Shown: piece after piece, positions 8,305 to 25,188 of the stretch | Position numbering within the stretch: the stretch's first letter is position 1 | Layout of the letters: each line of letters opens with the position of its first letter | Source: Streptomyces sp. NBC_01498 | Lineage (GTDB): Bacteria > Actinomycetota > Actinomycetes > Streptomycetales > Streptomycetaceae | Assembly: GCF_036327775.1 (NCBI RefSeq) | Contig: NZ_CP109598.1 | Location: 6,026,001-6,090,000 of the forward strand | Length of the DNA: 64,000 bases | Direction: 5' to 3' | Program-made: the position numbers and the translations under genes | The notes under the pieces: generated by a model | The model's database searches: none | Told to the model about the DNA's origin: nothing | What the model saw: the letters and a program-made list of their open reading frames with translations, nothing else

Positions 8305-8324
8305 CGACATCACCCTCCGTAGTC

Positions 8325-9481: not shown

Positions 9482-9504
9482 ATTACGCACTCCCGGACGC
9501 GACT

Positions 9505-10118: not shown

Positions 10119-10171
10119 CGGGCGACTGAGCGGGGGCGACGCACGCGAGACCCGGCGAAGGTGGATCACTC

Positions 10172-10870
10172 ATGGAAGACCAGACGAAACTCACCCTGGC
10201 CACGGCCGTCCTCGGCGGTTACGTGCTGGGCCGGACCAAGAAGGGCCGTCTCGCGCTGACGGTCGCCACGCTGGTGGCCGGCAGGGGACTCGGTTACGGC
10301 CCCCGGCAGTTGGCCGCCGAGGGAGCCCGCAGGCTCGGCGACGTGCCGCAGATCGCGGGGTTGCAGGACCAGTTCCGTGACCAGGGTGTGGAGGCCGCGC
10401 GCGGCGCGCTGTCGGCGGTCGCCGACCGTGGCATGGGCTCGCTGGCCGACGCGATCAGCGGCCGGGCGACGGCGCTCATCTCGAAGGACGACGGAGCCGA
10501 CGAGGACGACGAGAGCGACGAGGACGCCGCCGAGAACGAGGCGGAGGAGCCGGACGAGGGCGAAGAGGCCGAGGGCGAGGACACGGAGCCCGAGGACGAC
10601 GCCTCGGAGGAGGAGCCGGAGGACGACGAGTCCGAGCCCGAAGGCGAAGCCTCCGAGGAGGAACCCGAGGACGACGAGTCCGAGCCCGAGGAGGAACCGC
10701 CGTCCGCGAGGCGCCGGCGGGGCTCCGAACGCCGGGGCAAGCGCCCGGCGCCGAAGAAGAAGGCCCCGGCCAAGAAGGCTCCGGCCAAACCGGCCGCCAA
10801 GAAGACGGCGGCACCCGCGAAGAGGACGGCGAAGAAGACCGCTTCGGCCCGCTCCAGCCGTCGGAGGTGA
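10172..10870 (+). CDS. Acidic/basic two-block protein, resembling a gas-vesicle cluster accessory protein
   Basis: A 232-residue protein in three blocks. Residues 1-105 include LTLATAVLGGYVLGRTKKGRL and a helical stretch; residues about 108-170 are extremely acidic with an internal repeat (SEEEPEDDESEPE occurs twice); residues about 175-232 are Lys/Arg/Ala/Pro rich (KKKAPAKKAPAKPAAKK), like histone H1-type tails. The N-terminal block resembles, from memory, a protein usually annotated as DNA primase inside Streptomyces gas-vesicle clusters (the gvpY position); I see no primase motif. It sits 7 bp before the SRPBCC gene, so the two are probably co-translated. Confidence 0.7.
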   Translation: MEDQTKLTLATAVLGGYVLGRTKKGRLALTVATLVAGRGLGYGPRQLAAEGARRLGDVPQIAGLQDQFRDQGVEAARGALSAVADRGMGSLADAISGRATALISKDDGADEDDESDEDAAENEAEEPDEGEEAEGEDTEPEDDASEEEPEDDESEPEGEASEEEPEDDESEPEEEPPSARRRRGSERRGKRPAPKKKAPAKKAPAKPAAKKTAAPAKRTAKKTASARSSRRR

Positions 10871-10876
10871 CCGCGT

Positions 10877-11800
10877 ATGACCAGCACCCAGGAGGACACC
10901 GACACGTCGGCGCCCTCGAACGTCGAACGGCTCCGTGCGGAGATCACCCACTACGCGGGAGCGCAACTGGACCGTGTGGTGGACCGCGTCGGCGGCAAAC
11001 TGACCGATGTGACCGGTAAGTTGACCGACATCGCCGAGAACGGCGGTCAGCTGCCCGCGATCGGCTCCCGCATCCTGCACGGTGAGTCGCCGATCCGCTC
11101 CGTGGTCTCCGAGAAGGCGAAATCCGTCAAGGACTCCGTGACCGACAAGGCCAAGGATCTGACGGGCGCCGGAGGCAAGCCGGGCAGCGGGGACGTGAAG
11201 GTGACGAACATCGTCGAAGTCCTGGACGTGGGAGTGCCGTTGAGGACGGCGTACGACCACTGGACCGCGTACGACAAGTTCGCCGGGTTCACCAAGGGTG
11301 TCGGCAACGTCTCCAAGGACAAGGACGACGAGACCACCAGCAACTGGACGGCCAAGGTGGGCCCGTCGAGCCGGAGCTTCAAGGCCACCGTCCTGGAACA
11401 GATCCCCGACGACCGCATCGTCTGGGAGTCCGAGGGCTCGAAGGGCACGACCCAGGGCGCCATCAGCTTCCACGAGATGGCGCCGAATCTCACCAGGATC
11501 GTGCTTGTCGTCGAGTACAGCCCGGCCGGTTTCTTCGAGAAGACCGGCAACATCTGGCGTGCCCAGGGCCGTCGGCTGCGGCTCGACTTCAAGAACTTCC
11601 AGCGGTACGTGACCCTCACCGACGAGGAGCCGGAGGCATGGCGCGGTGAGATCCGGGACGGCGAGGTCGTCCGGACCCATGAGGAGGTCATGGAAGAGGA
11701 GGAGAACCAGCACGAGGAGGAGGACCAGGATCCGGAGGACGACGAGGGGGAGGAGACCGAGCCGGACGAGGACGGGGACGAGGACACCGAACGGGAGTGA
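10877..11800 (+). CDS. SRPBCC (START-like) family protein with acidic tail
   Basis: A 307-residue protein: N-terminal helical region (about 1-95), then an SRPBCC/polyketide-cyclase-like domain (about 110-270) with TNIVEVLDVGVPLRTAYDHW, DRIVWESEG and RIVLVVEYSPAGFFEKTGN, and a final run of Glu/Asp. This fold binds hydrophobic ligands, but no catalytic set is apparent. From memory the same arrangement occurs in SRPBCC proteins of Streptomyces gas-vesicle clusters (the gvpZ position), yet no gvpA, gvpJ, gvpK, gvpF or gvpL is present here. It starts 7 bp after the preceding gene. Confidence 0.78.
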   Translation: MTSTQEDTDTSAPSNVERLRAEITHYAGAQLDRVVDRVGGKLTDVTGKLTDIAENGGQLPAIGSRILHGESPIRSVVSEKAKSVKDSVTDKAKDLTGAGGKPGSGDVKVTNIVEVLDVGVPLRTAYDHWTAYDKFAGFTKGVGNVSKDKDDETTSNWTAKVGPSSRSFKATVLEQIPDDRIVWESEGSKGTTQGAISFHEMAPNLTRIVLVVEYSPAGFFEKTGNIWRAQGRRLRLDFKNFQRYVTLTDEEPEAWRGEIRDGEVVRTHEEVMEEEENQHEEEDQDPEDDEGEETEPDEDGDEDTERE

Positions 11801-11827
11801 GCCTCCCCCCCGACCGCTCGCCTCGAC

Positions 11828-11893
11828 CACTCGAATGGCGTTGTCCGGACGTACGGAGCACAGTGGAAGGAGGGCGGGAGGTCGCCCGGGGAA
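11828..11893 (+). promoter_or_regulatory. Upstream region of second Gls24 gene, duplicate of 9505
   Basis: Near copy of the sequence before the first Gls24 gene (CACTCGAATGGCGTTGTC..., CGGAGCACAGTGGA, GGTCGCCCG). Both coding region and leader were therefore duplicated together. Confidence 0.5.
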
Positions 11894-11950
11894 GAACTCG
11901 GGTGACCGTGAAATCGCTCCTCTGATTCTCTCCAGGAGGATGGGTCGGCC

Positions 11951-12394
11951 ATGGCAGTCAACGAAGCAGCGTCAAAGACAATGTCGAACGGTCATCACCA
12001 CCACGGTGACGTCAAGGGCACGACGACGATCGCCGATTCGGTGGTGGCCTCCATCGCCGGCATCGCCACCCGTGACGCGAACGGTGTGTACGCGATGGGC
12101 GGCGGAATCTCCCGGACCCTGGGTGCCGCGCGCGACAAGATGGCCCGGTCCGACGACGTCACCCGGGGCGTGAAGGTGGAAGTCGGCGAGAAGCAGGCCG
12201 CCGTGGACATCGATGTGGTGGTGGAGTACGGGTATCCCATCACCCGCACCACCGACGACATCCGCTCGGGCGTGGCCGACGCCGTCGAGAGCATGACCGG
12301 CCTTGAGGTCGCCGAGGTCAACATCGACGTGCTCGACGTGCATCTGCCGGGGTCGGACGACAGCGACGACGGCGGGGGATCCCGCACCCGCTGA
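11951..12394 (+). CDS. Asp23/Gls24 family envelope stress protein, copy 2
   Basis: A 147-residue paralogue of the protein at 9678; it differs mainly in the N-terminal 20 residues (His-rich GHHHHGDVKG here, GRRHHGDVEG there) and the C-terminal tail. The Asp23 domain is intact through GLEVAEVNIDVLDVHL. The GAGGATGGGTCGGCC leader before its ATG parallels that of copy 1. The gene ends the cluster and is followed by a perfect palindromic terminator. Whether the copies differ in expression or partner cannot be told from sequence. Confidence 0.88.
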   Translation: MAVNEAASKTMSNGHHHHGDVKGTTTIADSVVASIAGIATRDANGVYAMGGGISRTLGAARDKMARSDDVTRGVKVEVGEKQAAVDIDVVVEYGYPITRTTDDIRSGVADAVESMTGLEVAEVNIDVLDVHLPGSDDSDDGGGSRTR

Positions 12395-12420
12395 ACGACC
12401 GGAACCACCTCCGCGACAGC

Positions 12421-12462
12421 CGACGAGGTCCCGCCCCTTGTACAAGGGGCGGGACCTCGTCG
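12421..12462. terminator. 42-bp perfect palindrome, terminator of the Gls24 cluster
   Basis: Bases 12421-12441 are exactly complementary to 12442-12462, with the centre at TTGT/ACAA. It begins 27 bp after the second Gls24 stop codon. The right arm runs directly into a 9-bp tandem repeat. Confidence 0.8.
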
Positions 12463-12509
12463 TCCTCGTCGTCCTCGTCGTCCTCGTCGTCCTCGTCGTC
12501 CTCGTCGTA
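12456..12509. repeat. Six 9-bp tandem repeats (CTCGTCGTC)
   Basis: Units start at 12456, 12465, 12474, 12483, 12492 and 12501, the last ending in a variant base. Read on the minus strand it would encode Asp-Asp-Glu runs, but no supported gene covers it. Copy number probably varies by slippage. Confidence 0.8.
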
Positions 12510-12753
12510 CACGAAGGCGTCACGCGGGGCCGCGCCCACGTGACGCCGATCGGTGAGGAACGGGGTCCACCGCGGCCGACTCCGCCCGCGTGCAGGGCCG
12601 TCGGCGGCGAAGGCGCCGAGCGTGCCGCCCGTGCGCCCTTGTGAAAGGCCATCCCGTCCGCGTCACCGTGGCGGGAGCGTGTCGTCGAAGCGGTACGGGC
12701 CGCCGAAGCACGGGTACGGCGAGGCACGCGCCGGGGCTGAGAACGGGGAAGCG

Positions 12754-12909
12754 GTGTCCTCTCGGCAACCGAACGCACGGCTCGCGCGGCTTCTCGCGGA
12801 GGCGGGATGGACCGCGGCCCAGTGTGCCCGCGCCGTGTCGTCGGTCGCCTCCGAACACGGCCACGACCTCACCGTGAACCGCTCGACGGTGACCCGCCGG
12901 CTCGCGGTA
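12754..12909 (+). pseudogene. Truncated helix-turn-helix regulator N-terminus
   Basis: From a GTG preceded by GGGGAA, the frame reads PNARLARLLAEAGWTAAQCA and DLTVNRSTVTRRLAV, the start of a Streptomyces-type Xre-like regulator in which NxRLxxLIxEAGW and YDxTSVxRWLxG are typical. Homologues continue for several hundred residues; here recognisable sequence stops at about 12906 and runs in a different frame into a P450 tail. I read it as a deletion remnant. Confidence 0.6.
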
Positions 12910-13039
12910 CGAGGCTCTCTTCACCCGTTTCCCCACCCTGTTCCCGGCCGTCCCCGAACGCGACATCCCCTGGGAACTCGACCTGTTCTTCACCAAGCCG
13001 GCGGTGCTCCCCGTGGCCCGGGGCCCGGCACCCCGCTGA
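12905..13039 (+). pseudogene. C-terminal remnant of a cytochrome P450
   Basis: One frame, ending at the TGA at 13037, reads LFTRFPTLFPAVPERDIPWE then LDLFFTKPAVLPV. This is the C-terminal signature of actinomycete P450s (ALFxRFPxLRLAVPxxxIPW and a final LPV). The haem-binding Cys loop and everything before it are absent. The joint with the preceding regulator fragment is abrupt, suggesting a single deletion. Confidence 0.6.
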
Positions 13040-13191
13040 CCGCGACGCCCCGGCGGCTTCGGTGAGGTGGCCGCGCGCGGGACGTCAACGCCACGTGAAC
13101 GCCGCGCCCACCAAGGGATCAAAGGGCGCCGGGGGGAGGAATCCGGGGTCGGATGTCGACGGCACCGCACCCTCTTCGACAGGAGCTCGAC

Positions 13192-13620
13192 ATGCGTATC
13201 CGCTTCGCGGCCACCGCGGCCGGACTGACCATGGCCGTCGCGCTGACCGGCATCGGCGCCAGCGCCGCCACCGACACCACCGGTGTGCGGACGGCGACGG
13301 ACCGGACGACCGTCAACACCCCCTTCCGCAGCGCCGAATCGGCCGTGGCGCCGGCCGCCCTGCGCTGTCCGCGCGGCACCTTCTGCGCGTACATCCACGC
13401 CAACTACAGCGGCGAGCTGATGAGGTCGTCGGCCGGCCGGGGTTCGCGGGTGCAGGTGAGCGGCGGGACGTCGTCGGGCTCCAACAACACGGGGAACCAG
13501 TGGGTGGGAGTCAACGAGATTCCCGGTCCCGACGACGACGTCTGGAAGTGGGCCCCGTATTCGGAGGGGAACGTCAGCTCGGCGGCGAACGACAAGATCA
13601 ATCACTTCGACGTGAAGTAG
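13192..13620 (+). CDS. Secreted peptidase inhibitor family I36-like protein
   Basis: The ATG lies six bases after AGGAG. The 142-residue product begins with a signal peptide (MRIRFAATAAGLTMAVAL, likely cleavage after ASA at about residue 25), followed by a spacer and a domain opening RCPRGTFCAYIHANYSGEL, the cysteine-containing entry to the I36 (SMI-like) beta-gamma-crystallin-like inhibitor fold, and ending ANDKINHF. In Streptomyces these are abundant secreted proteins, some inhibiting metalloproteases; target unknown. It is an isolated unit closed by its own terminator. Confidence 0.82.
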   Translation: MRIRFAATAAGLTMAVALTGIGASAATDTTGVRTATDRTTVNTPFRSAESAVAPAALRCPRGTFCAYIHANYSGELMRSSAGRGSRVQVSGGTSSGSNNTGNQWVGVNEIPGPDDDVWKWAPYSEGNVSSAANDKINHFDVK

Positions 13621-13642
13621 GCGTGCGGTAGTTGTCACACCC

Positions 13643-13673
13643 ACGGGGGTGCCGGTCTCCCCGGCGCCCCCGT
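13643..13673 (+). terminator. Hairpin terminator after the I36-like gene
   Basis: ACGGGGGTGCCGG (13643-13655) pairs with CCGGCGCCCCCGT (13661-13673) with one G-U pair and a 5-base loop, followed by TTCTT. It lies 23 bp after the stop codon. Confidence 0.8.
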
Positions 13674-13717
13674 TCTTGACGACATGTCAGGTTGCCGGCC
13701 TTGACGGGAGAAGGACG

Positions 13718-14608
13718 ATGCCGGGTTTCACCGTGGCGGCCCTGACGGCCGTGTCGCTCATGCTGGCTGTCGGATCCGCCGGCTGCGCGCGGAGTTCGGA
13801 GGCAGCCGCTGTTCCCGACCGCTTCCGCCAGCTCGTGGATCGGCCCGCCGTACTCGACGAGACCGAGAACCGGTTGATCGCGCGGTGCATGGAACAGGCG
13901 GGACTGGGCTATCCGAAGGTGCCCGCCCCGCGAGACGACCGGCCGATGAGCGGGCTGCTCAGAGGCGCGACACCGCTGCACGCCGAGACCGCACGGCAAC
14001 ACGGCTATCCCGACAGGTGGATGACCCGTGCCCGTGATCCGGGGAAGGGTCCGGTCGACAGATACGCCGATTCGCTGCCCGCCGACACCAGAGAGCGGTT
14101 CCATCGCCTGCTCCTCGGCGAAGGCGGCAACGACGTACGGGTGGTGCTGCCGGGGAACTTCGAGGTGGCCGCGGCTTCCTCGGGCTGCGTGGGCAGCGCC
14201 CGGCGGCGGCTCTACGGATCGGTGGAGAACTACCTGACCGTGTACTACCTGCCCGAACTCGTGCAGCGGCAGGCATCCGCGGCCGACGAAGACCCCGACG
14301 TACGCGACGCCCACGCGGCCTTCGCCCGGTGCATGGCGGCCAAGGGCTACGACACGGCGACGCCGGACGACGCCGTCGCCCTGGCCGCCACGTACTACCC
14401 CGACGGCCGGCGCGGGCGCGCGGGGGCGGACGAGAAGACGCTCGCTGCCGGGGACGCGGAGTGCCAGACGACGGTGCGACTGCGTGAGCGGCGTGCCGCC
14501 GCGGTCGATCGCCTCGCCCGGCGCTGGCTGGCCGACAACGAAGCCGCTGTGTCGAGGACTTACGAGGTACTGCGATCCGCTCTCGCGGAAGCGAGAACGA
14601 AGGGGTAG
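13718..14608 (+). CDS. Putative secreted lipoprotein of unknown function
   Basis: A 296-residue protein. The ATG after GGGAGAAGG opens a signal peptide (TVAALTAVSLMLAVGSAGC) whose Cys at residue 24 could be lipidated, although the position -3 residue is not the usual Leu. The mature part contains repeated CMxxKGY/CMEQAGLGYP-type patterns: RCMEQAGLGYP near residue 55 and RCMAAKGYDT near residue 205, plus further cysteines and long helical stretches. Similar Cys-Met motif lipoproteins are common uncharacterised Streptomyces proteins. A GTG-type upstream extension is possible but would bury the signal peptide. Confidence 0.7.
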   Translation: MPGFTVAALTAVSLMLAVGSAGCARSSEAAAVPDRFRQLVDRPAVLDETENRLIARCMEQAGLGYPKVPAPRDDRPMSGLLRGATPLHAETARQHGYPDRWMTRARDPGKGPVDRYADSLPADTRERFHRLLLGEGGNDVRVVLPGNFEVAAASSGCVGSARRRLYGSVENYLTVYYLPELVQRQASAADEDPDVRDAHAAFARCMAAKGYDTATPDDAVALAATYYPDGRRGRAGADEKTLAAGDAECQTTVRLRERRAAAVDRLARRWLADNEAAVSRTYEVLRSALAEARTKG

Positions 14609-14694
14609 ACGCGAAGGCGTGGCGGGCGGCGATGTCTTCGCGGTGTCCCCTGCGGGTCCTGTGGGCGGGTTCCCGCCCGACGGTGGTCATGCCG

Positions 14695-14739
14695 GTGCCC
14701 CGTCGGCCACGAGAGACTCGGGCGAGGCCGACGGGGCAC
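14695..14739. terminator. 14-bp stem terminator between convergent genes
   Basis: GTGCCCCGTCGGCC (14695-14708) pairs exactly with GGCCGACGGGGCAC (14726-14739), loop 17 bases. A second small hairpin, GGGCGGG/CCCGCCC, sits at 14663-14678. They separate the lipoprotein gene from the convergent SH3-like gene. Confidence 0.75.
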
Positions 14740-14785
14740 TGTCCTACGGGAACACCGGGATCAACTGGCGCCGGTGCTCAGTGAG

Positions 14786-15172
14786 TCACGGGCACTCGCC
14801 GGGCGCCGCCCCGATGTTCTCGACCCAGCGGGCGGCGACCCAGTGGCGCTCACCCGGCAGCTTGTACCAACGGCGATTTCCTTCCACGACCTCGCCGTTG
14901 GTCTTGCATTCCAGCTCGATGACGGTGCCGAACGGGATGGAGCCGACGGGCGGCCTGCTGGTGTTCGGGTCCTTCCGCACGTTGAGCGACGGCTGCGCGA
15001 TGACCCGGCCCTTGAACACGACAGCGGCGGGGGACTGGGCGGCCTCGGCGGAGGACGGCGCGGAGCCGGTCCGGTGGTCGGTGGCGACGGCGGGGGCGGC
15101 CAGTGCCGTACCGGCCAGCAGGACTCCGGCGAGCACGGAGACGATCCGGTGCCCGGTGTGCGGTGCGCTCAT
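14786..15172 (-). CDS. Secreted SH3-like domain protein
   Basis: A 128-residue protein with a signal peptide (IVSVLAGVLLAGTALAAPAV) and a bacterial SH3-type domain: LNVRKDPNTSRPPVGSIPFG, IELECKTNGE and WVAARWVENIG. The start is chosen at the ATG at 15172, eight bases after AGAGGAA, which puts the signal peptide at the N-terminus. SH3_3-like domains bind cell-wall peptides; the two cysteines (LECK and the C-terminal GECP) may form a disulfide. It is transcribed toward the lipoprotein gene. Confidence 0.8.
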   Translation of the reverse strand: MSAPHTGHRIVSVLAGVLLAGTALAAPAVATDHRTGSAPSSAEAAQSPAAVVFKGRVIAQPSLNVRKDPNTSRPPVGSIPFGTVIELECKTNGEVVEGNRRWYKLPGERHWVAARWVENIGAAPGECP

Positions 15173-15512
15173 GGCGGATTCCTCTTGTTGTCGGTGAGCA
15201 TCCGGGGGGCTTCCCGGTGGTGCCCCCTTCATGGCACGAGCAGGGGCGGTGAACCCTGCCCCCGCGCCGGAAACGCGGACTCTCACCCGGACGGGCGTAC
15301 GTGTTCGGGGTCCGTACGACCGATCCGGGACGCAGGGCCTCGGGGCGGGCCGATGTCGTACGGCGGGTCAATAACGGTCAGGGGTCGGCGGGTTCGGGTT
15401 CGGGCTCGGGTGTGCGCGCGGGGTGCGGGGTGCCGGCTCGGACGCGGCTTCGGGTCCGCCGGCGGTGTGCCGTACCGGCCGCGATCCCGCTCACTCGCCT
15501 CACCACCGGGGC
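15173..15512. other. 340-bp intergenic stretch, upstream of the SH3-like gene and after lanC
   Basis: I see no gene. The interval has CGTACG at 15296 and 15313 flanking GTGTTCGGGGTC, and a short run of GGTTCG/GGGCTCGGG repeats near 15395-15415. Any lanC terminator and the promoter of the SH3-like gene must lie here, but I cannot place them. Confidence 0.5.
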
Positions 15513-16820
15513 TCAGGCCAGCAGCAGGGCCATGTCCCATTCGGTCGTGGTGCGGCCGTCCGCGTAGGCGTCGAGTGCGAGCGCGGTTCCCGTGGCGCCC
15601 TCCAGGAAGGCGGGAACGTCGGTGCCCTGCGGGGCGCTTGTGAGGGGGGACCGGAAACCGAACCGGTACCCGGGGCGGAACTGGGCGAGCGTGCGCGCCG
15701 CCATCGTGTCGGTGAGGTCGGTCAGGCGCTTGTCGCCGATGGTCTCGTTCAGCACGGCGAGCAGGTGCATCATCCCGCTCCACCCGTGGCACACGGTGGG
15801 GTTGTCGATGTTCCAGCCGTCCGGATCGGTGGTCAGGAAGGGCAGCAGGGAACGGTGGGCCAGGCCGAGCCAGTCGGCACGGTCGAAGGCGAGCCCCGCG
15901 AGCTGCACCGCTCGGGAGATCCCCGGGGCGCCGTAACACCAGGACGGGCGCTGGCGCGGCGGCGCGACACCCGGTCCGTCCGCCCAGTGTTCGAGGGTCA
16001 GATGCGCGGGCCACCGTGGTCCGTCGGGGCTCTCGTAGGCCCACCGCTGGAGGAGCCCGACCAGCCGCTCGACAGCCTCGCGCTGCCCGTCCACGACCAC
16101 GCCCCGCTGCCGGGCCAGCGACAGCAGGGCGAGCGGTCCCGCCACGCCGTGCGAGAGTCCGAGGTTCAGATGCCCGTCGGGCATCTCGACCTCCTGCCCC
16201 AGTTTGGGCGCCGCCCAGGTCCACCAGCGGGGCACCCGATGGCCCCGGTGGGTGATCTCGCCGTGCGCCATGCGCGTCAAGTAGGTGAGGACGAGGCGCA
16301 GTTCCTCCTCGCACCGCTCCCGGCGCGCCAGCAGATAGCGGCCGACCCCGCTCATGCCCCGGACCACCTCGAACTCGCCGTTGGTCGGGGCCGGGACGGA
16401 GCGGACGTCGGGCAGCGCGCGGCGGATCAGCCGGCGCTGGTGGTCGTCGAGCCGGTCGAGAGCGGAACGGTAGCCGCCCGTGGCGCGGTGCGCGACGAGG
16501 ACGGCGAAGGCGACGGCGCCCGGACCGTTGTAGATGCCGCCCGGGGGGTGGGCGCCGGCGGCCATGGCGCGCATGGCGCGGACGAGATAGGCGTGCGCCC
16601 GCGCGGCGTCGGCGGGTCCGCCGCGTGCCGTGTACGCCAGGGACACTCCGGGATAGCCGCAGGAGAGGGACAACTCCTCCCACAGAGGCGCCCGCAGGGC
16701 GACCTGCGGCCCGTCGTCCGGGACACGGGTGTCGGCGGCGGTCGCCTCCGGGTCGGTGAGCCGGCCGAAGACCTGCGCGGCGACGTCCCGGGCCTCGTCC
16801 GCGTACCGGGGGGCGGTCAT
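15513..16820 (-). CDS. Lanthionine synthetase C-like cyclase (LanC)
   Basis: A 435-residue class I cyclase that adds cysteine thiols onto dehydrated Ser/Thr in the precursor peptide. The zinc-binding signature is intact: WCYG with Cys295 and CHG with Cys344 and His345; the GLSHGVAG loop typical of LanC is also present. The start ATG overlaps the lanB stop by 4 bp (ATGA), so it is translationally coupled. Length is typical for the family. The cluster has no dedicated protease or transporter around it. Confidence 0.92.
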   Translation of the reverse strand: MTAPRYADEARDVAAQVFGRLTDPEATAADTRVPDDGPQVALRAPLWEELSLSCGYPGVSLAYTARGGPADAARAHAYLVRAMRAMAAGAHPPGGIYNGPGAVAFAVLVAHRATGGYRSALDRLDDHQRRLIRRALPDVRSVPAPTNGEFEVVRGMSGVGRYLLARRERCEEELRLVLTYLTRMAHGEITHRGHRVPRWWTWAAPKLGQEVEMPDGHLNLGLSHGVAGPLALLSLARQRGVVVDGQREAVERLVGLLQRWAYESPDGPRWPAHLTLEHWADGPGVAPPRQRPSWCYGAPGISRAVQLAGLAFDRADWLGLAHRSLLPFLTTDPDGWNIDNPTVCHGWSGMMHLLAVLNETIGDKRLTDLTDTMAARTLAQFRPGYRFGFRSPLTSAPQGTDVPAFLEGATGTALALDAYADGRTTTEWDMALLLA

Positions 16821-19800
16821 CCGGTCTGCTCCCTGTGCTTGTTCTCTTCCGGGGTGCGGGCGTGCGCCAGGCGGCCCTGGTGCTCGCGGGCGACGCCGCG
16901 CAGCACGGCGTAACCGGTGTCCTCGCCGGTCCTGTCGATGCCGAGCAGCCGGTTGTGCTGCATGTGCAGCAGCGCCATGACCGCTTCGGCGTGCTGGTCG
17001 GTACCGGGCGCGCGCCCCGGGTCGGACAGCAGCAGCGCACCGTACTTCCCGGTCTCCGGCGTGCCGCTCCACAGACGCGCGAGGGGCTCGCCCAGTACCG
17101 GGGCCGCGCTCCGGGCGGTGTGTCCGGGCACGATCAGCGACATGGCCTGCTCCCGGTGGGTCCGGTACGCCGCGTGGGCGGGCCCCTTGGGCAGGACACG
17201 GCTGATCCAGGCCGACCAGTCCCAGTCGCCGAGCGATTCCAGCAGGAGCGCGTGGTTGACGGCGGCGAGCACCGGCGCGGGCAGGGCCAGGGCGCCCCGC
17301 GCGCGCAGGCCGAGCTGGGCCAGTGCCGATTGGCTGTCCACACAGAACATCCGTTCCGCGTGGGCGAGCGCCTCGGGTCCGCCGTAGCGGTCGGTCTCGG
17401 GCCGGTAGGTGTCCAGGACCATGCCCTTGATCAGCCCTGTCTCCTGCCACTTCCGGCTCACGGCGGCGAGTTGGGGCAGGACCGTGGTGCGCAGGGCCTC
17501 GGCCGCGCCGTGCAGGCGCAGCCGGACGTGGGGTTCGGGATCGCGGTACCGGAGGAAGTGCCAGCCGCGCAGGTCGTCGCCCACCGCGCGTACGAGGGTG
17601 GGAAGTCCGGTGTGCAGCAACTCGTCGTGCGTGTCCGGCGTTCCGTACAACTTGACGTAGAGCCATTCCTCGCCCGGCAGGTGCTGAACGGTGTGGTCCG
17701 TGGGCCGCGGGGCGAGCGGGCGGCGGGCCCGGCGGGAGGTCTCGTCGTGCCGGTCGGGTGGCGTGGCCCGGGTGAGCGGAACGACGACTTCGGCGCCGTG
17801 CCCGCCGGACCAGCCCAGCGCGCGTCCGCCGTCGGTGAGGTCCTCCATGATCGCCAGCGAGCCGCCGCCGCGCACTTCCTGGCGGAACACCTCGCGGCGC
17901 CAGGGGTCGGTGAGGTCCACCCGGTACGTACGGTCCCACCGGGCGAGGTTCACCTCGGCGGGCACCCGGTAGCGCTCCCGCCACGCCTCGACGGCCCGCT
18001 CCCACCCGGACGGGTCCTCCACCGCCGCACGCAGATGCCGGTCCGGCACCCAGCGCCGGGGGAAGATCGTGACACGGCCGTACGTCACGGCGGGGAGGTA
18101 CGGCAGTGACTCCAGCCCGCACCAGTTCCAGCCCGTCCACGTCCTGGCCCGGCCGCACGCGAGCTCCACCAGGAGCCGGGCGACCGGTGGCGCCTCCCGG
18201 CCGAGAGCGAGCATGTGCGGGACGACGGGCAGGACTTCACGCCCGTCGTCCGGCAGGATCAGCCGCAGTCCGTGAGGCCCGAGGGTGACGAGGAGCCGCC
18301 GCCAGTCGAGCGTGCCCGGCGCGTTCCGGTCGGCGTACACGCCCACCGGAATCGAGTGCGGCAACAGGCGGGGAACCTGGGCCATGTTGAGCCCGCGCAC
18401 CGTGTGCGGGCGGTACACCACCTGGGCCGGGACGGTCTCCGGGTCGCCGAGACCGCCCAGGAGGGACGCCAACTCGCCCTCCATACCGACGAGTCCGGCG
18501 AATCGCCCGACGGTCGCCCCGGCCAGCCAGGAACCCGGGTACGCCGGCGACAGGAGCCGGAAGTCGCCCCGGTCGACGGCTTGTTCGCTCCCGGCCAGCA
18601 GCTGGAAGCAGAGTTCCAGCGACCTCGGCGGGGGAACGGACTCGTCGCTCGTGCGTCCGGCGGCCAGCCGGTCGACGAGGCCGGGGGTGAGCCGGACCTC
18701 GGCGTCGCCGCTCAGCAGCGCCTCCTGCACCAGGTCGTGGGTGAGGAGGCGGCGTTCCCTGGGGAGCGGTTCCGGTTCCTGGCCCCGCGCGGGCTCGCCG
18801 CCGGCCCGCTCGCCGTAGCCGGGCGGGAATCCGATGCCCCGGTGCGGGTCGACGAGCCGGCCGAGGGGGACCACTCCGCCGGTGCCGTACGCCTCCACGA
18901 ACCGGTCCTGGTACGTACGCATATGGGCGTGGGTCTGCCACTCCCCGGAGAGTTCCCACATGGCGGAGGCGTAGCGGGCGGCCTCCTCGGTGACCACCCG
19001 TGAGATCCGCACGTCGGCGTCCATGCGCAGGTCGACGTGGACGGGCGGCCTTGCGGCGGTGCCCCCGGGGTCGGTCAGCCGCATCAGCCCCTGCCAGGCC
19101 GCGCGGCCCTCGCCGGGCGTCGTTGTGGCGTAGGCGGCCAACGCGGCGCGTACGCGGGCGAATTCGGCCCCCGCCTCCGGCGCGGCCGTGAGGGCCGCCG
19201 CGATGCGGTCGTACAGGTCCTCGTCCAAATCCTGCGGGGTGAGGGAGGTCAGCAGGAAGCCGTGGCGTACCAGCGGGAACAGCGCGGCGTCCAGCCGGTC
19301 GGGAGTCAGAGGGGGGAAGGCGGCGGACGCCCGCTCCAGGAGTACGGCGTAGCCGACGGGCGCCGTCGCGTGCTCGCGCACCCAGGTCACCAGGGCCGTG
19401 TCGCGGACGGAGACCTCGCTCCCGTTGCCGGGGACGACGAACCGTTCGCCGCGGGTGCGGCACAGGTCGTTCAGCACGACGTCCACGCGGTGCCGTACGC
19501 CGGGCAGTTCGAGCCATTCGGCGACGCGCCGGGTCAGCCAGGCGGCGTCCAGCCGTACCGACTTCGCGCCGGGGCCGGACAGCGTCACCCGTGTGGTGTC
19601 CGCCGCCCGCGCGGGCGCGACCCCGGCGAAGAGTCCGAACGGTGTCGGCCGGGTCTCCGCCCGCAGCGCGTACCGGGAGAGGGCGAGCGCCGTACGGCGC
19701 AGTCGTTTGGCTCCGAGTTCGGCCCCGGCGTCGAGCCGGTCCAGGGAGCCGGCGAGGCTGCCGCTGGCGACGTGCAACGCCTCGCGCAGCAGCGGATCGG

Positions 19801-19921
19801 CGGCGGCCTCGCGCACCTGGGCGGCCGAGTCGCCGAGCGGACGGCCGCCCGGTCCGGAGCGGGGCGTCGCCGTTGCGCGGACGAACAGGCAGTCCCGCGG
19901 TGTGTAGTGATCGTCCCGCAC
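16817..19921 (-). CDS. Full-length class I lanthipeptide dehydratase (LanB)
   Basis: About 1034 residues, containing both LanB parts: a glutamylation domain (roughly residues 1-660, beginning YTPRDCLFVRATATP) and an elimination domain (about 751-1034, EEWLYVKLYG, then FLRYRDPEPHVRLRLHG). The enzyme uses glutamyl-tRNA to activate and eliminate water from Ser/Thr. I prefer the GTG at 19921, nine bases after GGGGAG, which places YTPRDCLFVR near the N-terminus as in known LanBs. A GTG at 19960 adds 13 residues but would lie against a hairpin without a ribosome site. Confidence 0.9.
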   Translation of the reverse strand: MRDDHYTPRDCLFVRATATPRSGPGGRPLGDSAAQVREAAADPLLREALHVASGSLAGSLDRLDAGAELGAKRLRRTALALSRYALRAETRPTPFGLFAGVAPARAADTTRVTLSGPGAKSVRLDAAWLTRRVAEWLELPGVRHRVDVVLNDLCRTRGERFVVPGNGSEVSVRDTALVTWVREHATAPVGYAVLLERASAAFPPLTPDRLDAALFPLVRHGFLLTSLTPQDLDEDLYDRIAAALTAAPEAGAEFARVRAALAAYATTTPGEGRAAWQGLMRLTDPGGTAARPPVHVDLRMDADVRISRVVTEEAARYASAMWELSGEWQTHAHMRTYQDRFVEAYGTGGVVPLGRLVDPHRGIGFPPGYGERAGGEPARGQEPEPLPRERRLLTHDLVQEALLSGDAEVRLTPGLVDRLAAGRTSDESVPPPRSLELCFQLLAGSEQAVDRGDFRLLSPAYPGSWLAGATVGRFAGLVGMEGELASLLGGLGDPETVPAQVVYRPHTVRGLNMAQVPRLLPHSIPVGVYADRNAPGTLDWRRLLVTLGPHGLRLILPDDGREVLPVVPHMLALGREAPPVARLLVELACGRARTWTGWNWCGLESLPYLPAVTYGRVTIFPRRWVPDRHLRAAVEDPSGWERAVEAWRERYRVPAEVNLARWDRTYRVDLTDPWRREVFRQEVRGGGSLAIMEDLTDGGRALGWSGGHGAEVVVPLTRATPPDRHDETSRRARRPLAPRPTDHTVQHLPGEEWLYVKLYGTPDTHDELLHTGLPTLVRAVGDDLRGWHFLRYRDPEPHVRLRLHGAAEALRTTVLPQLAAVSRKWQETGLIKGMVLDTYRPETDRYGGPEALAHAERMFCVDSQSALAQLGLRARGALALPAPVLAAVNHALLLESLGDWDWSAWISRVLPKGPAHAAYRTHREQAMSLIVPGHTARSAAPVLGEPLARLWSGTPETGKYGALLLSDPGRAPGTDQHAEAVMALLHMQHNRLLGIDRTGEDTGYAVLRGVAREHQGRLAHARTPEENKHREQTG

Positions 19922-19960
19922 GTGTTCTGGCTCCCCCTCGATCCCGGCGACTGGCACCAC

Positions 19961-19996
19961 CCGCGTGGGGCGGGGTACGGACCCCGCCCCACGCGG
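19961..19996 (-). terminator. 16-bp stem hairpin between lanthipeptide precursor and LanB
   Basis: Bases 19961-19976 pair perfectly with 19981-19996 around a 4-base loop. Placed 12 bp after the precursor stop codon, it fits a partial terminator that lets the precursor be made in excess over LanB, a common arrangement in lantibiotic operons. Its 3' side abuts the upstream candidate lanB start. Confidence 0.75.
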
Positions 19997-20008
19997 GCTG
20001 GAGGACGC

Positions 20009-20167
20009 CTACGCGCAACAGATGTTGCAGGGCGACCCGAAGGTGCTGGGCGAGGTGGCACCGCCGGCCGCGTACGCGGTGCCCTCCGCCTCCGTCTCGG
20101 CGATCTGGATGTCGAGGTCGAGCTCGACGAGGTCGGTGGTGTCTTCCAGCAGAAGGTTGGTGCTCAT
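20009..20167 (-). CDS. Class I lanthipeptide precursor, FxLD-like leader
   Basis: A 52-residue peptide whose ATG follows GGAGGAG. The leader contains VELDLDIQIAE, matching the FxLD-type leader box with Leu in place of Phe (L16-D17-L18-D19). The C-terminal part after G35-G36 is ATSPSTFGSPCNICCA: five Ser/Thr (38, 39, 41, 42, 45) and three Cys (47, 50, 51), enough for up to three lanthionine or methyllanthionine rings. The cleavage point is uncertain; the double Gly is suggestive only. LanB and LanC follow directly downstream. I do not recognise the core as a known lantibiotic. Confidence 0.88.
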   Translation of the reverse strand: MSTNLLLEDTTDLVELDLDIQIAETEAEGTAYAAGGATSPSTFGSPCNICCA

Positions 20168-20212
20168 GAGACTCCTCCGGTCATTGGCTCGCCGACGTCG
20201 GTTGGACGTTGG

Positions 20213-20238
20213 CGAAACGTTTCGGTTCTGTTTGAACC
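20213..20238. promoter_or_regulatory. Adjacent palindromes in lanthipeptide/FAD-oxidase divergent region
   Basis: CGAAACGTTTCG (20213-20224) is a perfect 12-bp palindrome and touches GGTTC-TGTTT-GAACC (20224-20238). Both lie about 46-70 bp upstream of the precursor ATG, a position typical for operators. The remaining stretch to 20577, upstream of the FAD oxidase, holds no gene; an imperfect hairpin CGCCCTTCCC/GGGGGAAAAGGGCG lies near 20340-20367. Confidence 0.45.
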
Positions 20239-20577
20239 AGACCGGAGCATATGCAGGGTGCATGCAAAACATCACGTGCGGTTACGCAAGTTGACCGGAA
20301 TAAGCGCTCCGTGACGCCACATGACTGACTGTTCCCACGGCGCCCTTCCCGCTGGGGGAAAAGGGCGGTCCGGCGTGCGGCCCGTGCCCGGCGATTCTCT
20401 GGCGCGACGGTGATTTCGCGCCACGAGGAAGACAGTTCGCGGGCCCCGGACGGCGGCGGCCCGCGCCGGCCGTGCACGACGGGTCGCGGGAAATCCCGTT
20501 GCGCCGTCCCGCCGGTGAACCGACAGTGTCTCTACGGCCGTGGCCCGAGCGGTCGTTGGCCTGTCGAAAAGGACCTC

Positions 20578-21612
20578 ATGTCAGCCGTTGTCGTCGTCGG
20601 CGCGGGAATCGTCGGTTCCTCCGTGGCCTACCACCTGGCACGCCGGGGCGTCCCGGTCACCCTGATCGAGCGGGGACCCGCACCGGCCGCCGGGGTCACC
20701 GGGGCGTCCTTCGCCTGGATCGGCGGCGCGGGAGGTCATTGGCCCGGTGGTGCGCGCGACCTCCGCGAGTACGTCCTGGCGGACTACCGACGCCTGGAGG
20801 GCGAACTGCCCCACGTCACGGTCCGCCGGTGCGGCTCGCTGTCTCCGGCGCACCGGACGGGGACGCACGGCCGGAGGCGGGTCAGCTCCGCGTCGGACGA
20901 CGTGACATCGCGGCGCTGGAGCCCAACCTCCGGCGCCCGCCCGAGCAAGCCGTCCACATCCCGAGCGACGCGGGGCGTCGACCCGACGGCGCTGGCCCGG
21001 ACGCTCGTGACAGCCGCCGCCGACCACGGAGCAACCGCCCTCCACGACACCGCGGTTACCTCCCTGCGGGTGACCGGCGGACGTGTGGACGGAGTGCTGA
21101 CGTCGACCGGACCCCATGCCGCCGGCACCGTGGTGCTCACGGCGGGCACCGACATCCCCGAGCTCTGCGAGCCCCTGTCGGCGGACCTCCCCGTCGTGGC
21201 ATCCCCGGCCGCCGTCGCGCGGGTCGCGGCTCCGCCCGGCCTGGTCAGGACCGTCGTGGCGAGCCCCGCCTTCGAGGTCCGGGAAGTCCGGGACGGCGAG
21301 CTCCTGCTGGGTCTGCCGCACGCCGAGGGCAGAGCGGCCCTCGATCGGGCCGCGCGTGACACGCTCCAGCGTCTGAAGGCCGCCTTCCGGGGGAGCGGGC
21401 AGTGCCGCCTGCTCGGCTATCGCACCGGCAGACGCCCCATGCCCGCGCACGGACCCGTCATCGGCTACGCGACGGACGATCGATCCGTCTACGTCGCCGT
21501 CATGCACTCCGCCGTCACCCTGGCGCCCACGGCCGGACGGCTCGTCGCGGACGAACTCGTGACCGGCAGACCGGCCCCCGAGCTGCGGCACTGCCGCCCG
21601 CGCACCCGCTGA
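20578..21612 (+). CDS. FAD-dependent amino acid oxidase-type protein with a frameshifted middle segment
   Basis: The ATG follows AAGGA by five bases; 344 residues. The N-terminus is a clean DAO-type FAD fold (VVVVGAGIVGSSVAYHLARRG, then GASFAWIGG) and the C-terminus has GYRTGRRPMPAHGPVIGYA. Between about 20840 and 20972 the frame reads an unlikely Ser/Arg-rich stretch, while the next frame reads LRVGRRDIAALEPNLRRPPE and EQAVHIPSDAG, which is what the family has there. Two compensating indels are the simplest explanation: about 44 residues are out of frame. This may be a sequencing error or a real lesion that could abolish activity. Substrate unknown. Confidence 0.7.
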   Translation: MSAVVVVGAGIVGSSVAYHLARRGVPVTLIERGPAPAAGVTGASFAWIGGAGGHWPGGARDLREYVLADYRRLEGELPHVTVRRCGSLSPAHRTGTHGRRRVSSASDDVTSRRWSPTSGARPSKPSTSRATRGVDPTALARTLVTAAADHGATALHDTAVTSLRVTGGRVDGVLTSTGPHAAGTVVLTAGTDIPELCEPLSADLPVVASPAAVARVAAPPGLVRTVVASPAFEVREVRDGELLLGLPHAEGRAALDRAARDTLQRLKAAFRGSGQCRLLGYRTGRRPMPAHGPVIGYATDDRSVYVAVMHSAVTLAPTAGRLVADELVTGRPAPELRHCRPRTR

Positions 21613-21683
21613 CCTCGCGTCTCCACGACATCGATCAGGAGGAACGGAGCGAGAACCTGGCCGACGGGGCGCCGAACATTCGC

Positions 21684-23018
21684 TCAGAGGGCGGCGAAGG
21701 CTTCTTCCACCGCTTCGCAGGTGATGGCCAGTTCGTCCTCCGTCACAGTCGCGGCGACGAACCAGCAGGCCATGCCGTAGGCGTTGGCGTGCACTCCGCG
21801 TTTGAGGAGTTCGTGACGGAAGGCGTGGTAGCGGGCCTGGTCGGCGTGGAGGAGGTCCCGGTACTGGCGGGTCGGCGCGCCGTCGGGGGTGAAGACCGTC
21901 TGGAACATGGCACCGACGCCTTGCACCGCGCACGGAATGCGCCGGTCGTGCGCGGCGCGCCGGATCGTCTCCATGATGCGGCGACCGCTGTCGTCGATGC
22001 GTTCGGTGGTCTCGGGCCGGTTCAGACCGCGGAGGGTGACCAGGGCCGATGTGGCGCACAGAGGTGAGGAGTTGTACGTCCCGCCGTGCTTGACGAGGCC
22101 GCGTGCCAGGGGTTCCATCACGTGCCGCTGCCCCGCGAAGGCGGCGATGGGCAGGCCGCCGCCCAGGGCCTTGGAGAAGACGGCGATGTCCGGCGTGACG
22201 TCGAACATGGTCTGGGCGCCGCCGGGTCCGGTGCGGAATCCGGTGCAGACTTCGTCGAAGATGAGCACGATCTCGCGTGCGGTGCATTCGTCTCGCAGCA
22301 GGTCCAGGTAGCCCGGGTCGGGCATGGTGCAGGCGTTGTTGGCGACGATCGGCTCGCAGATGACCGCTGCGAGTTCCCCGCGGTGGGCGTCGAGGGCCGT
22401 GCGGAGAGCCGCGGGATCGTTCCACGGGCAGACGACGACGTCGTCGACGACCCCGGCGGGTATGCCGGGGGAGTGGGGCACGGGGTGGGGCGCGGCGTAG
22501 GGGCCGGCCTCGGCGGCACCGGGGCGGTTGGAGACGGCGAGTGTGTCGGACCAGCCGTGGTAGTGGCCTTCGAACTTGAGGATCTTCGAGTGTCCGGTGT
22601 ACCCGCGGGCGGCGCGCACCGCCCCCTGCACCGCTTCGCTGCCCGAGTTGGCGAAGCGGACGAGTTCCGCGCAGGGCACCATGTCGCGGATCAGCTCGGC
22701 GAGTTCGACCTCCGGGGTGTTGCAGGTGCCGAACATCGTGCCGGTGTGCAGGACCGCCGTGAGTGCCTCGGTGAGTTGTGGCGGGGCGTGTCCCAGCACC
22801 GCGCTGCCGTAGGAGATGAGGTAGTCGATGTAGTCGTTGCCGTCGACGTCGCGGATACGCGTACCGGAGCCGCTGGCCATGTAGAGGGGATAGGGGTGCG
22901 GGCCTGTCGACGTCAGCCGGGAGGAGGAGCTGATGCCGCCGGCGAGTGACGCCTGGGCCCGGTCGAACCAGGCCCTGCTGCCTTCGGTTCCGCCCAACGC
23001 CTGTATGTGGCCATTCAT
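21684..23018 (-). CDS. HemL-like class III aminotransferase
   Basis: A 444-residue PLP enzyme resembling glutamate-1-semialdehyde aminomutase: NSGSEAVQGAVRAARGYTGH, FEGHYHGW, IFDEVCTGFR (Asp255) and the Schiff-base lysine in VFSKALGGGLP (Lys283). The start at 23018 follows AGGAG by seven bases. It is unlikely to be the housekeeping hemL, because it sits among SDR, dioxygenase and oxidase genes rather than haem genes; HemL-like enzymes also act in natural-product pathways as aminotransferases or aminomutases. It is divergent from the SDR gene with only 83 bp between them. Substrate unknown. Confidence 0.88.
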   Translation of the reverse strand: MNGHIQALGGTEGSRAWFDRAQASLAGGISSSSRLTSTGPHPYPLYMASGSGTRIRDVDGNDYIDYLISYGSAVLGHAPPQLTEALTAVLHTGTMFGTCNTPEVELAELIRDMVPCAELVRFANSGSEAVQGAVRAARGYTGHSKILKFEGHYHGWSDTLAVSNRPGAAEAGPYAAPHPVPHSPGIPAGVVDDVVVCPWNDPAALRTALDAHRGELAAVICEPIVANNACTMPDPGYLDLLRDECTAREIVLIFDEVCTGFRTGPGGAQTMFDVTPDIAVFSKALGGGLPIAAFAGQRHVMEPLARGLVKHGGTYNSSPLCATSALVTLRGLNRPETTERIDDSGRRIMETIRRAAHDRRIPCAVQGVGAMFQTVFTPDGAPTRQYRDLLHADQARYHAFRHELLKRGVHANAYGMACWFVAATVTEDELAITCEAVEEAFAAL

Positions 23019-23101
23019 GTGCGGCTCCTGTTTCGGTGAGGGGCGGTTGGGCACGCTCGGAATGCCTTTCGTACGCGTGGATGTGCTGGTGGAGAGGACG
23101 G

Positions 23102-23857
23102 GTGGGCGTGGACGGAAGAACGGTGCTCGTCACCGGGGCGGGCAGCGGGATCGGGCGGGCCTGTGCGCTGGGTCTGCTGGACGACGGCTGGACCGTGATT
23201 CTGGTCGGCAGACGCCGGGAGCCGCTGGAGGAGACGGTCGCCTCGGCCCCCGCCGCCCTTCGTGGTCGGGCGGTCCCGTTCCCGGCCGACATCACCGATC
23301 CCGCCGCCGTGGACGCCCTGTTCGGACATGTCGTGGACCGCTTCGGCCGGCTGGACGTGCTGTTCAACAACGCCGCCGACACCATGGCGTACACCCCGAC
23401 GGAGGACGTGGGCATCGAGGACTGGCACCGTGTGATGGACTCCATCGCCACCGGAACGTTCCTCTGCTCCCGTGCCGCCTTCCGGGTGATGAAGCGGCAG
23501 ACCCCGCGCGGGGGGCGGATCATCAACAACGGGGCGCCCTCGGCCCAGGTACCCCGGCCGGACTCCGTGGCGTTCACCGCCGCCAAGCACGCGGTGGCCG
23601 GATTGACGCGCTCGCTGTCCCTGGACGGCCGCCCTCACGACATCTCGTGCGGGCAGATCGACATCGGCAACGTCACTCCGCCCGACCGTCCGCAGCCGGC
23701 GGTTCTCCAGGCGGACGGTTCACGGCGGGTCGAAGCCACCATGGACGTGAGGCATGTCGTCGACATGGTGCGGACCATGGCCGGTCTGCCCCCGGGGGTG
23801 AACATCCAGTCCGTCCTGGTCATGCCCAGCACCATGCCGTACGTGGGCCGGGGATAG
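23102..23857 (+). CDS. Short-chain dehydrogenase-like protein lacking catalytic Ser and Tyr
   Basis: A 251-residue SDR with an intact cofactor motif (TGAGSGIG) and NNAA in place of NNAG. At the active site, homologues of this type read NNGS...PYTxxKHA; here the sequence reads INNGAPSAQVPRPDSVAFTA then AKHAV: the serine is Ala (GCG) and the tyrosine is Phe (TTC), while the lysine remains. It may therefore bind NAD(P) without normal SDR catalysis. The GTG start follows GAGAGG; GTG at 23108 is an alternative. The 3' end overlaps the convergent gene by 138 bp. Confidence 0.85.
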   Translation: MGVDGRTVLVTGAGSGIGRACALGLLDDGWTVILVGRRREPLEETVASAPAALRGRAVPFPADITDPAAVDALFGHVVDRFGRLDVLFNNAADTMAYTPTEDVGIEDWHRVMDSIATGTFLCSRAAFRVMKRQTPRGGRIINNGAPSAQVPRPDSVAFTAAKHAVAGLTRSLSLDGRPHDISCGQIDIGNVTPPDRPQPAVLQADGSRRVEATMDVRHVVDMVRTMAGLPPGVNIQSVLVMPSTMPYVGRG

Positions 23858-24370
23858 ACCGGCCGCGTACGCCTCGAACCAGTTGCCGGACACCAGCTGT
23901 CCGGTCTGAGCCCAAGCGAGCATGCGGTGCAGCCCGTCCAGGTGAATCAGCCCCGAACGGACCGTCAAGGACGCGTAGTCGGGCCCCGAAACCGGCCGGG
24001 TACTCAGAAACAGGGGAAGACGGACCGCTGAGCGCTGTCTGGCGAGTTTGAACGCGCACAGCGGATTGGAGCGCTCGTACGCCGGACCGAGCATCGCGGC
24101 CCGGTCCGCGGCGGCGGCCACGCTGAGCCCGGTCGGGGGGACGAGTTCCACCTCGCCGCCCTCCCCCAGGTGCCAGGGAAGTATCACGCCCCGCACTTCC
24201 GGCCCCTCCAGCAGGACCCGGTGCCAACTGCCGCCCAACTCGTCATGCGCGTTGCGGACATGCCCCTCGGCCTCGTCGTTGGTGTTGGCCTCGTCGGAGG
24301 CGACGAAGGGATGCTCACGGACGAAGCGGCGCATGACCTCGTCGAACGGGACTGCCCCAAGGATCCTCAT
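23720..24370 (-). CDS. Unknown protein, possibly DUF6309-like, coupled to a dioxygenase
   Basis: A 216-residue frame starting at an ATG that overlaps the upstream dioxygenase stop (ATGA). Recognisable structure: FDEVMRRFVREHPFVASDEA, WHRVLLEGPEVRGVILPWH and LIHLDGLHRMLAWAQTG. The last 45 or so residues are antisense to the SDR gene and look like shadow sequence, so the original protein may have ended earlier and lost its stop. I have a weak recollection of this N-terminal pattern as DUF6309, a Streptomyces family with no known function. The LDGLHRMLAW segment hints at a ParB/sulfiredoxin-like or metabolite-binding site, without proof. Confidence 0.6.
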   Translation of the reverse strand: MRILGAVPFDEVMRRFVREHPFVASDEANTNDEAEGHVRNAHDELGGSWHRVLLEGPEVRGVILPWHLGEGGEVELVPPTGLSVAAAADRAAMLGPAYERSNPLCAFKLARQRSAVRLPLFLSTRPVSGPDYASLTVRSGLIHLDGLHRMLAWAQTGQLVSGNWFEAYAAGLSPAHVRHGAGHDQDGLDVHPRGQTGHGPHHVDDMPHVHGGFDPP

Positions 24371-25188
24371 GCACTGCTCCTCCGCGCCGCTTCGTACTCG
24401 CTGAAATGCCGTTCGCAGAACAGCTCCGGCCGCCCCGCGCCCAGACCGCGCGCCCGGGCCACCGCCAACACCTGCCGCCAGTACGGCTTGACCGGCGGCC
24501 ACAAGGTACCCGTGCGGCAGTAGGAGCCGTCGATCATGTAACGGCTGCCCGCGTTCCCCCGCGAGGGGCGCGCGGCGCGGCGGGCGTGAAAGAGCGCCGA
24601 GTGAAGGACGACGGTCGACCCCGGCGGCAGGTCGTCGATGACCACTTCGCCCGGCAGCACGTCCGTGCCCGCATGTCTTCGCGCGTCCTTCTCGGCGACT
24701 TCCCGCTGCGAACCGGGCAGCACCGCCAGTCCACCCAGCTCCGGCCGGAGCCCGCCTATGTAGTGCAGCGCGTGGATCATCGGGAAGCGGCGGTCGCGCT
24801 GCGGTCGTTGTTCGTAGTCGTGATGCCAGCTCTTGCCCGCTCCGCCGACCGGTCGCCGGTCGCTGTGCAGGTGGTGGAAGACGAAGGAGCCGCCCAGCAG
24901 TTCGGGGCTGCGGAGCAGATCCAACAGCGGCGGATACACCGCCAGTTCACCGTGCGCCTCCAGGTCCAGCTCGACCATTCGCGGCGGCGGGCCACCCACG
25001 TCCGCACACGCGTCGATGGACCGCTGACGCCACCCCGTCTCCACCCATCGGTCGACTTCCGGAACAAGGCGGCCGACCAGGCCGGCCGGAAGAAAGCCCG
25101 GTAGCACGAGGAAGCCGTCCTCGGCGAAGTTCCCTGTCCGACCGTCGTTGGCGCGGTTACCTCTCACGTTTCGGAACCCCCGGTTCAC
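24367..25188 (-). CDS. PhyH-type Fe(II)/2-oxoglutarate dioxygenase
   Basis: A 273-residue protein of the phytanoyl-CoA dioxygenase-like family. The iron ligands are visible as His-x-Asp in SWHHDYEQ and the distal His in HSALFHARRA, with a downstream Arg candidate for 2-oxoglutarate binding (GNAGSRYMIDGSY). Such enzymes hydroxylate or halogenate small molecules in natural-product pathways. The GTG at 25188 gives the longest product; a GTG at 25167 is also plausible. It is co-transcribed with the unknown gene downstream and ends the divergent half of this small cluster. Confidence 0.85.
   Translation of the reverse strand: MNRGFRNVRGNRANDGRTGNFAEDGFLVLPGFLPAGLVGRLVPEVDRWVETGWRQRSIDACADVGGPPPRMVELDLEAHGELAVYPPLLDLLRSPELLGGSFVFHHLHSDRRPVGGAGKSWHHDYEQRPQRDRRFPMIHALHYIGGLRPELGGLAVLPGSQREVAEKDARRHAGTDVLPGEVVIDDLPPGSTVVLHSALFHARRAARPSRGNAGSRYMIDGSYCRTGTLWPPVKPYWRQVLAVARARGLGAGRPELFCERHFSEYEAARRSSA

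Follow-up and report, generated by a model that had tools for sequence, protein, structure and literature searches.

We analyzed a stretch of 64,000 nucleotides of Streptomyces sp. NBC_01498 (contig NZ_CP109598.1, positions 6,026,001 to 6,090,000), hereafter called the window, in which a lanthipeptide precursor gene, lanA, is followed on the same strand by genes for a dehydratase, LanB, and a cyclase, LanC (Table 1). A first-pass annotation, made from the letters alone, had described a minimal class I lanthipeptide locus with an unrecognized core peptide; its coordinates are correct, with all three open reading frames (ORFs) on the minus strand within 15513-20167. The lanB and lanC genes overlap by 4 bases. 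LanB matches the Pfam domains Lant_dehydr_N (E 6e-161) and Lant_dehydr_C (8e-46), and LanC matches LANC_like (1.3e-48); these domains, together with the conserved A-B-C set described below, bear out the minimal lanABC locus. A separate full-length LanB, a zinc LanC, and an adjoining precursor with an FxLD-like box and a Ser/Thr/Cys core, as in class I, are all present. The three genes are real and look functional, and a self-contained class I lanthipeptide cassette is the best explanation of the locus and, in our judgment, a highly probable one.

Table 1. Features of the lanthipeptide locus and its surroundings, in positions of the window
Feature	Positions	Strand	Description
lanA	20009-20167	-	52-aa precursor, LDLD leader box, C-terminal ATSPSTFGSPCNICCA; 7 close homologues
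lanB	16817-19921	-	full-length tRNA-Glu-type dehydratase, 1034 aa from GTG 19921 (1047 aa if GTG 19960)
lanC	15513-16820	-	zinc cyclase; ligands C295, C344, H345; conserved H224
Stem-loop between lanA and lanB	19960-19997	-	17 pairs counted; attenuator-like; z -4.4, covariation
Possible 5' hairpin / inverted repeat	20189-20215	-	upstream of the lanA ribosome-binding site
Strain-specific region	7118-25650		18.5 kb, between alcohol-dehydrogenase and M20 peptidase genes; contains the cassette

The product of lanA is database protein P0004. A search of 5.8 billion proteins with this precursor returned 8 matches including its own entry; since the other seven are 75-88% identical to it, and since lanA stands directly before lanB-lanC in seven named records and one plasmid, the 52-residue frame is not a chance ORF. 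In the protein database, all eight matches carry the entry PF27905; the Pfam copy that we used gave no domain on the precursor. In the eight aligned precursors, T38, S39, S41, T42, S45, C47, C50, and C51 are invariant, as are G35-G36 before the core, whereas the last residue varies (A/F/W) and so does the residue ahead of TSPST (A/F/Y). The core boundary, placed after GG, is a guess. Comparing the window with eight orthologues, we obtained ratios of nonsynonymous to synonymous differences (pN/pS) of 0.21-0.71 for lanA, 0.31-0.42 for lanB, and 0.31-0.45 for lanC.

The active-site residues of both enzymes are in place. In the alignment of LanB with NisB (4wd9), Y97, R100, R104, and T106 correspond to NisB Y80, R83, R87, and T89; W637 to W616; R813 and R815 to R784 and R786; E855, R858, and Y859 to E823, R826, and Y827; and H999 to H961. 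The alignment stops short of R28, which is the likely equivalent of NisB R14; the doubt that LanB might lack glutamylation residues, raised at the first pass, is thus not borne out. Mutation effects have been described for NisB Y80, R83, R87, W616, R786, R826, and H961 (passages in PMC4341554 and PMC4979651). Of 25 LanB proteins, including that of the window, 21 have R28, 24 have the Y97-T106 group, and all 25 have the remaining residues, the differences being gaps only; the gap in the Y97-T106 group belongs to an incompletely read sequence (L090). Of the LanB proteins with a solved structure, the nearest is microbisporicin MibB (5ehk, E 1.2e-95). The start GTG 19921 is more likely than GTG 19960, because the conserved stem-loop has its edge at 19960 and because three of the seven orthologous loci (L015, L017, L018) have no start codon upstream of the 19921 equivalent, whereas the other four frames are open beyond it, further upstream; a purine-rich stretch lies ahead of GTG 19921. 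In LanC, the cysteines and histidine listed in Table 1 align with the NisC zinc site, and H224 aligns with the conserved SHG/AHG motif. The cyclase is therefore zinc-complete, as had been proposed. A Cys-Cys-His zinc triad of LanC is described in a passage of PMC11672506.

The cassette has relatives in other Streptomyces. Our scan of genome contigs found it in seven named records (S. acidicola, S. torulosus, S. oryzae, S. smyrnaeus, S. spirodelae, S. palmae, and one Streptomyces metagenome-assembled genome), and an eighth further record is a linear plasmid of S. anthocyanicus; the orthologous three-gene set, for which the first-pass annotation had suggested looking, thus exists in eight further records, and the order lanA-lanB-lanC is the same in all nine loci (the window and L015-L022). 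A search of 392 Streptomyces genomes gave the precursor in 8, its own counted, of which four are close (78-100%) and four distant and SCO0268-like (30-36%). With LanB as the query and a limit of E<=1e-100, 19 of 199 Streptomyces genomes were reached; in the class as a whole, at E<=1e-60, the count was 49 of 394, and both counts include the own genome. Fifteen regions around near relatives were retrieved. The TSPS cores fall into three related kinds: the window type, TSPST[FY]GSPCN[IL]CCx, from which S. palmae (L021) deviates at two of these positions; the Embleya type, TSPSTYGVQSRCPxCCx (L023, L077); and the SCO0268 type, [TS]SPSSYAIGTRCPxCC (L024, L079, L080, L083, L088, L091). In a LanB tree with 25 rows, the nine window-type loci group together with full support (100/100), and so do the six SCO0268-type loci on a branch of their own (100/100); the two Embleya-type loci and L078 lie beside the window branch, with no firm order among them. 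It should be noted that the LanB of L078 (genome G050) is 52-53% identical to that of the window, and that the adjoining core differs and ends in TSTSTCNSWGGHFSRCWNCN; this branch of dehydratases may handle diverse cores.

The S. coelicolor genes SCO0268-SCO0270 were listed as LanA-LanB-LanC in a 2010 in silico survey (passage in PMC3091789). Like the window, the family of SCO0268 (TIGR04451) has an LDLD-like leader, the order lanA-lanB-lanC, and no other widely conserved gene, and its core, [TS]SPSSY...TRCPxCC, has a similar spacing of Ser/Thr and Cys at its end; however, its LanB proteins are only 47-52% identical to that of the window and form a separate tree branch, and the window core ends in GSPCNICCA rather than GTRCPxCC. 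The window precursor scores 26.3 bits against TIGR04451 (E 5.8e-6), whose curated cut-off is 40 bits; when genomes were searched with the model, it found 4 of 199, the own one below the cut-off (24.6 bits). A PEAQxS motif, named for the SCO0268 family in a passage of PMC11672506, is absent from the window precursor, and the SCO0268-type precursors that we fetched are also without that spelling: four of their leaders (L024, L079, L080, L091) have PEQA.., and two have other letters. NCBIfam calls this family class II, and the precursor of L024 (7716-7877), which belongs to a LanB/LanC locus, is annotated as "class II lanthipeptide", in conflict with its class I enzymes.

Embleporicin, a relative from Embleya, has an LDLD leader and an SxCxxCCx-type core; its cell-free product inhibited Micrococcus luteus after treatment with furin (passages in PMC11672506). 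Embleporicin and its Embleya/G185 relatives (L023, L077) share with the window the LDLD leader, the TSPSTYG..SxCxxCCx core, and the three-gene core, with no LanP in the cluster as described in those passages. The relatives differ from the window in their LanB (54-57% identical) and in a longer core (GVQSRCPLCCA). The GVQSxCxxCCx motif of this group, present in L023 and L077, is not found in the window, which has FGSPCNICCA; the same source also reports four Cys for embleporicin and describes its cluster with a cytochrome P450 and a TetR regulator. The locus belongs to a family already on record, within which it represents a distinct and well-conserved subfamily, on its own branch beside the embleporicin-like and SCO0268-family cassettes. 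The first-pass annotation holds for the minimal lanABC locus, the zinc-complete LanC, and the absence of LanP, LanT, or a methyltransferase among the neighbors tested, and fails for the "unrecognized core": public-database homologues exist, four of the seven named "class II lantibiotic LanA", the precursor matches the SCO0268-family model, albeit below its cut-off, and a related peptide, embleporicin, has already been produced in a cell-free system. Nor is the LDLD leader a sign of novelty, as it is known both in microbisporicin (PMC3930743, Table 2) and in embleporicin (passage in PMC11672506).

Microbisporicin (NAI-107), whose prepropeptide sequence is given in a passage of PMC10715042, resembles the window in the LDLD leader, in the C-terminal TSP-x(2-3)-GSxCxxCC, and in having the nearest solved LanB. 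Its C-terminal half, TSPGGGSNCSFCC, aligns with TSPSTFGSPCNICC of the window at a score reached by 9 of 5000 shuffles, in a comparison chosen after the likeness had been noticed and uncorrected for that choice; in the same post hoc test, the counts were 16, 121, 22, 62, 52, and 35 for six relatives and 463 for L078, with its different core. In contrast to microbisporicin, the window peptide has neither an N-terminal half with two further Cys nor a Ser at the aminovinyl-cysteine (AviCys) position, and LanD, halogenase, and P450 domains, all three of them part of the microbisporicin comparison, were not found among the 20 ORFs of the window that we scanned with Pfam. The AviCys of microbisporicin is made from the Ser two residues before the penultimate Cys. 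The window has N48 at this position, and Ser occurs there only in L021 among the nine loci; because of this Asn, the AviCys ring cannot form in the window peptide. Nisin shares the catalytic residues (NisB/NisC) and differs in its FNLD box and unrelated core, and it has the transporter NisT and the protease NisP.

The lanA-lanB spacer of the window folds at -58.4 kcal/mol, which none of 200 shuffles equals, and each of the 12 spacers that we folded, 88-120 in length, has a strong predicted stem (-47 to -69 kcal/mol). In the nine aligned loci, changes on both sides occur at 5 of the 17 pairs, which 1 of 500 shuffles matched; the covariation score was reached by none of 500 shuffles and all six slid versions scored lower, with an imperfect fit of the alignment (85% of cells paired). 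Attenuation between precursor and enzyme genes is common in lantibiotic operons, and we infer this role for the stem-loop. The upstream hairpin is a possible element only: its position is conserved, its folding z is -1.0 (37 of 200 shuffles as good), and its covariation is unremarkable compared to shuffles. An Rfam scan of 15000-25500 gave nothing at gathering score.

We compared all reading frames of 25 loci against each other, after removal of lanABC-internal frames, with flanks that contig ends limited to lengths between under 1 kb and about 12 kb. Any other family is common to at most 4 of the 17 TSPS-core loci, and therefore the conserved unit consists of lanABC and the very stable lanA-lanB stem-loop; one of the families that reach 4 of 17 is the alcohol-dehydrogenase family of 6032-7117. 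The absence of LanP, LanT, or a methyltransferase nearby, as noted at the first pass, holds among the 20 neighboring ORFs (a subset of the window ORFs, at least two of which are probably not genes), where Pfam found no domain of an ABC transporter-ATPase, a subtilisin, or a methyltransferase.

The site is variable, and the region that holds the cassette is strain-specific: its flanking genes are 18.5 kb apart in the window, whereas in L122 and L124, two of the seven relatives compared, about 1.9 kb separates them. In L121, the gap is about 8.5 kb; no alcohol-dehydrogenase gene was found in the stretch examined of L120, L123, and L125, and L126 has a weak match only. In the regions of these seven relatives, no lanABC match above 40% identity was present among the matches listed. 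The M20 peptidase gene, at 25651, occurs in 31 of 31 genomes, the own one counted. The gene set, the active-site residues, their conservation, the stem-loop, and the strain-specific region are what the sequences show.

We propose that LanB, guided by the LDLD leader box, would glutamylate Ser/Thr of the core using Glu-tRNA and then eliminate glutamate to give dehydro residues, to which LanC would add C47, C50, and C51. The C-terminal stretch TSPSTFGSPCNICCA, with its five Ser/Thr and three Cys, would then carry at most three thioether rings, which would overlap. The calculated [M+H]+ of ATSPSTFGSPCNICCA is 1558.633 without modification and 1504.602, 1486.591, and 1468.581 after 3, 4, and 5 dehydrations; if GG is retained, the three dehydrated values become 1618.645, 1600.634, and 1582.624. 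By limiting read-through, the stem-loop behind lanA probably keeps the output of precursor above that of the enzymes. Leader removal and export are probably supplied from outside the cassette by general host functions, and the three genes could therefore move as a unit between Streptomyces genomes; the cassette seems to move without a dedicated export or cleavage gene. The number and pattern of rings, attenuation, a host-supplied protease and exporter, and an antibacterial or signaling role are what we infer beyond the genes themselves.

Three other explanations were considered. The locus could be what is left of a larger, decaying lantibiotic cluster that has lost its transporter, protease, and immunity genes, with the product no longer made; this would agree with the lack of LanT, LanP, or similar genes among the 20 ORFs and with the variable region, but eight other records keep three open genes with pN/pS below 1 in differing surroundings, and the SCO0268-type and Embleya-type relatives likewise have only A-B-C in common, so that we regard decay as improbable. 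Less probable still is a class II-like peptide, in which the GG before the core, invariant in the eight close homologues, would be the cleavage site of a C39 peptidase (LanT), as the database names and the label of TIGR04451 would suggest. Against this, LanB and LanC, not a LanM synthetase, stand beside lanA, the aligned SCO0268-type members have GT before the core, and a search of the complete own genome (1 contig) gave no hit to a C39 peptidase, while the control of that search was positive in 8 of 14 genomes; the GG is therefore unlikely to be a C39 site here. Equally remote is participation of a neighboring tailoring enzyme (the flavin adenine dinucleotide (FAD) oxidoreductase at 20410-21612, the aminotransferase, or PhyH) in a pathway where LanB and LanC still modify the peptide, since, despite adjacency to the cassette and a FAD gene divergent to lanA, none of the three families is among those common to 4 of 17 cassettes and, in the seven named loci, the matches listed include only a 25% aminotransferase match (L016).

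As for the neighbors themselves, 20410-25188 holds FAD amine-oxidase-like, glutamate-1-semialdehyde-aminomutase-like aminotransferase, DUF6309, and PhyH dioxygenase genes, all within the strain-specific region, which are perhaps a separate small-molecule cluster. The FAD oxidoreductase (3 of 61 genomes, including the own) and the downstream SH3 protein (4 of 61, including the own) were each tried as pathway partners and rejected, as rare genes outside the cassette-shared families. The stretch 27423-28268 encodes a protein with two ChpA-C (chaplin) domains, and the adjoining small ORF 27111-27389 matches the same backbone site in relatives. Elsewhere in the own genome, there are one other Lant_dehydr_N gene, LanB-like, 145 bits and far from the cassette (L026, C1:4413103-4415142), and two more distant LANC_like stretches in open frames of more than 900 codons (L002 and L003, C1:700929-701927 and 6830028-6830327).

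Several points weigh against a self-contained, working cassette. The pN/pS of lanA is as high as 0.71 in one pair (52 codons), the flanks are shortened by contig ends in several loci, a lack of partner genes close to the cassette is no evidence that the product is exported or cleaved at all, and neither a product of the window-type subfamily nor any of six core strings of the family turned up in our searches of the open-licence PMC literature.

A broader proposal is that the lanABC clade is a portable "plug-in" module that uses a general Streptomyces exporter and protease, and that its compact peptide, with three overlapping rings (C47, C50, and C51 onto S39, S41/T42, and S45), has a new ring pattern, an isolated second half of microbisporicin; we offer it tentatively, as a possibility with the odds somewhat against it. 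If the peptide is made, the cassette would be a very small complete lanthipeptide gene set, useful for cell-free work, and it would raise a testable question, namely what protease and exporter of the host are used by cassettes without genes for either. In public records, moreover, precursors of this class I kind bear class II names.

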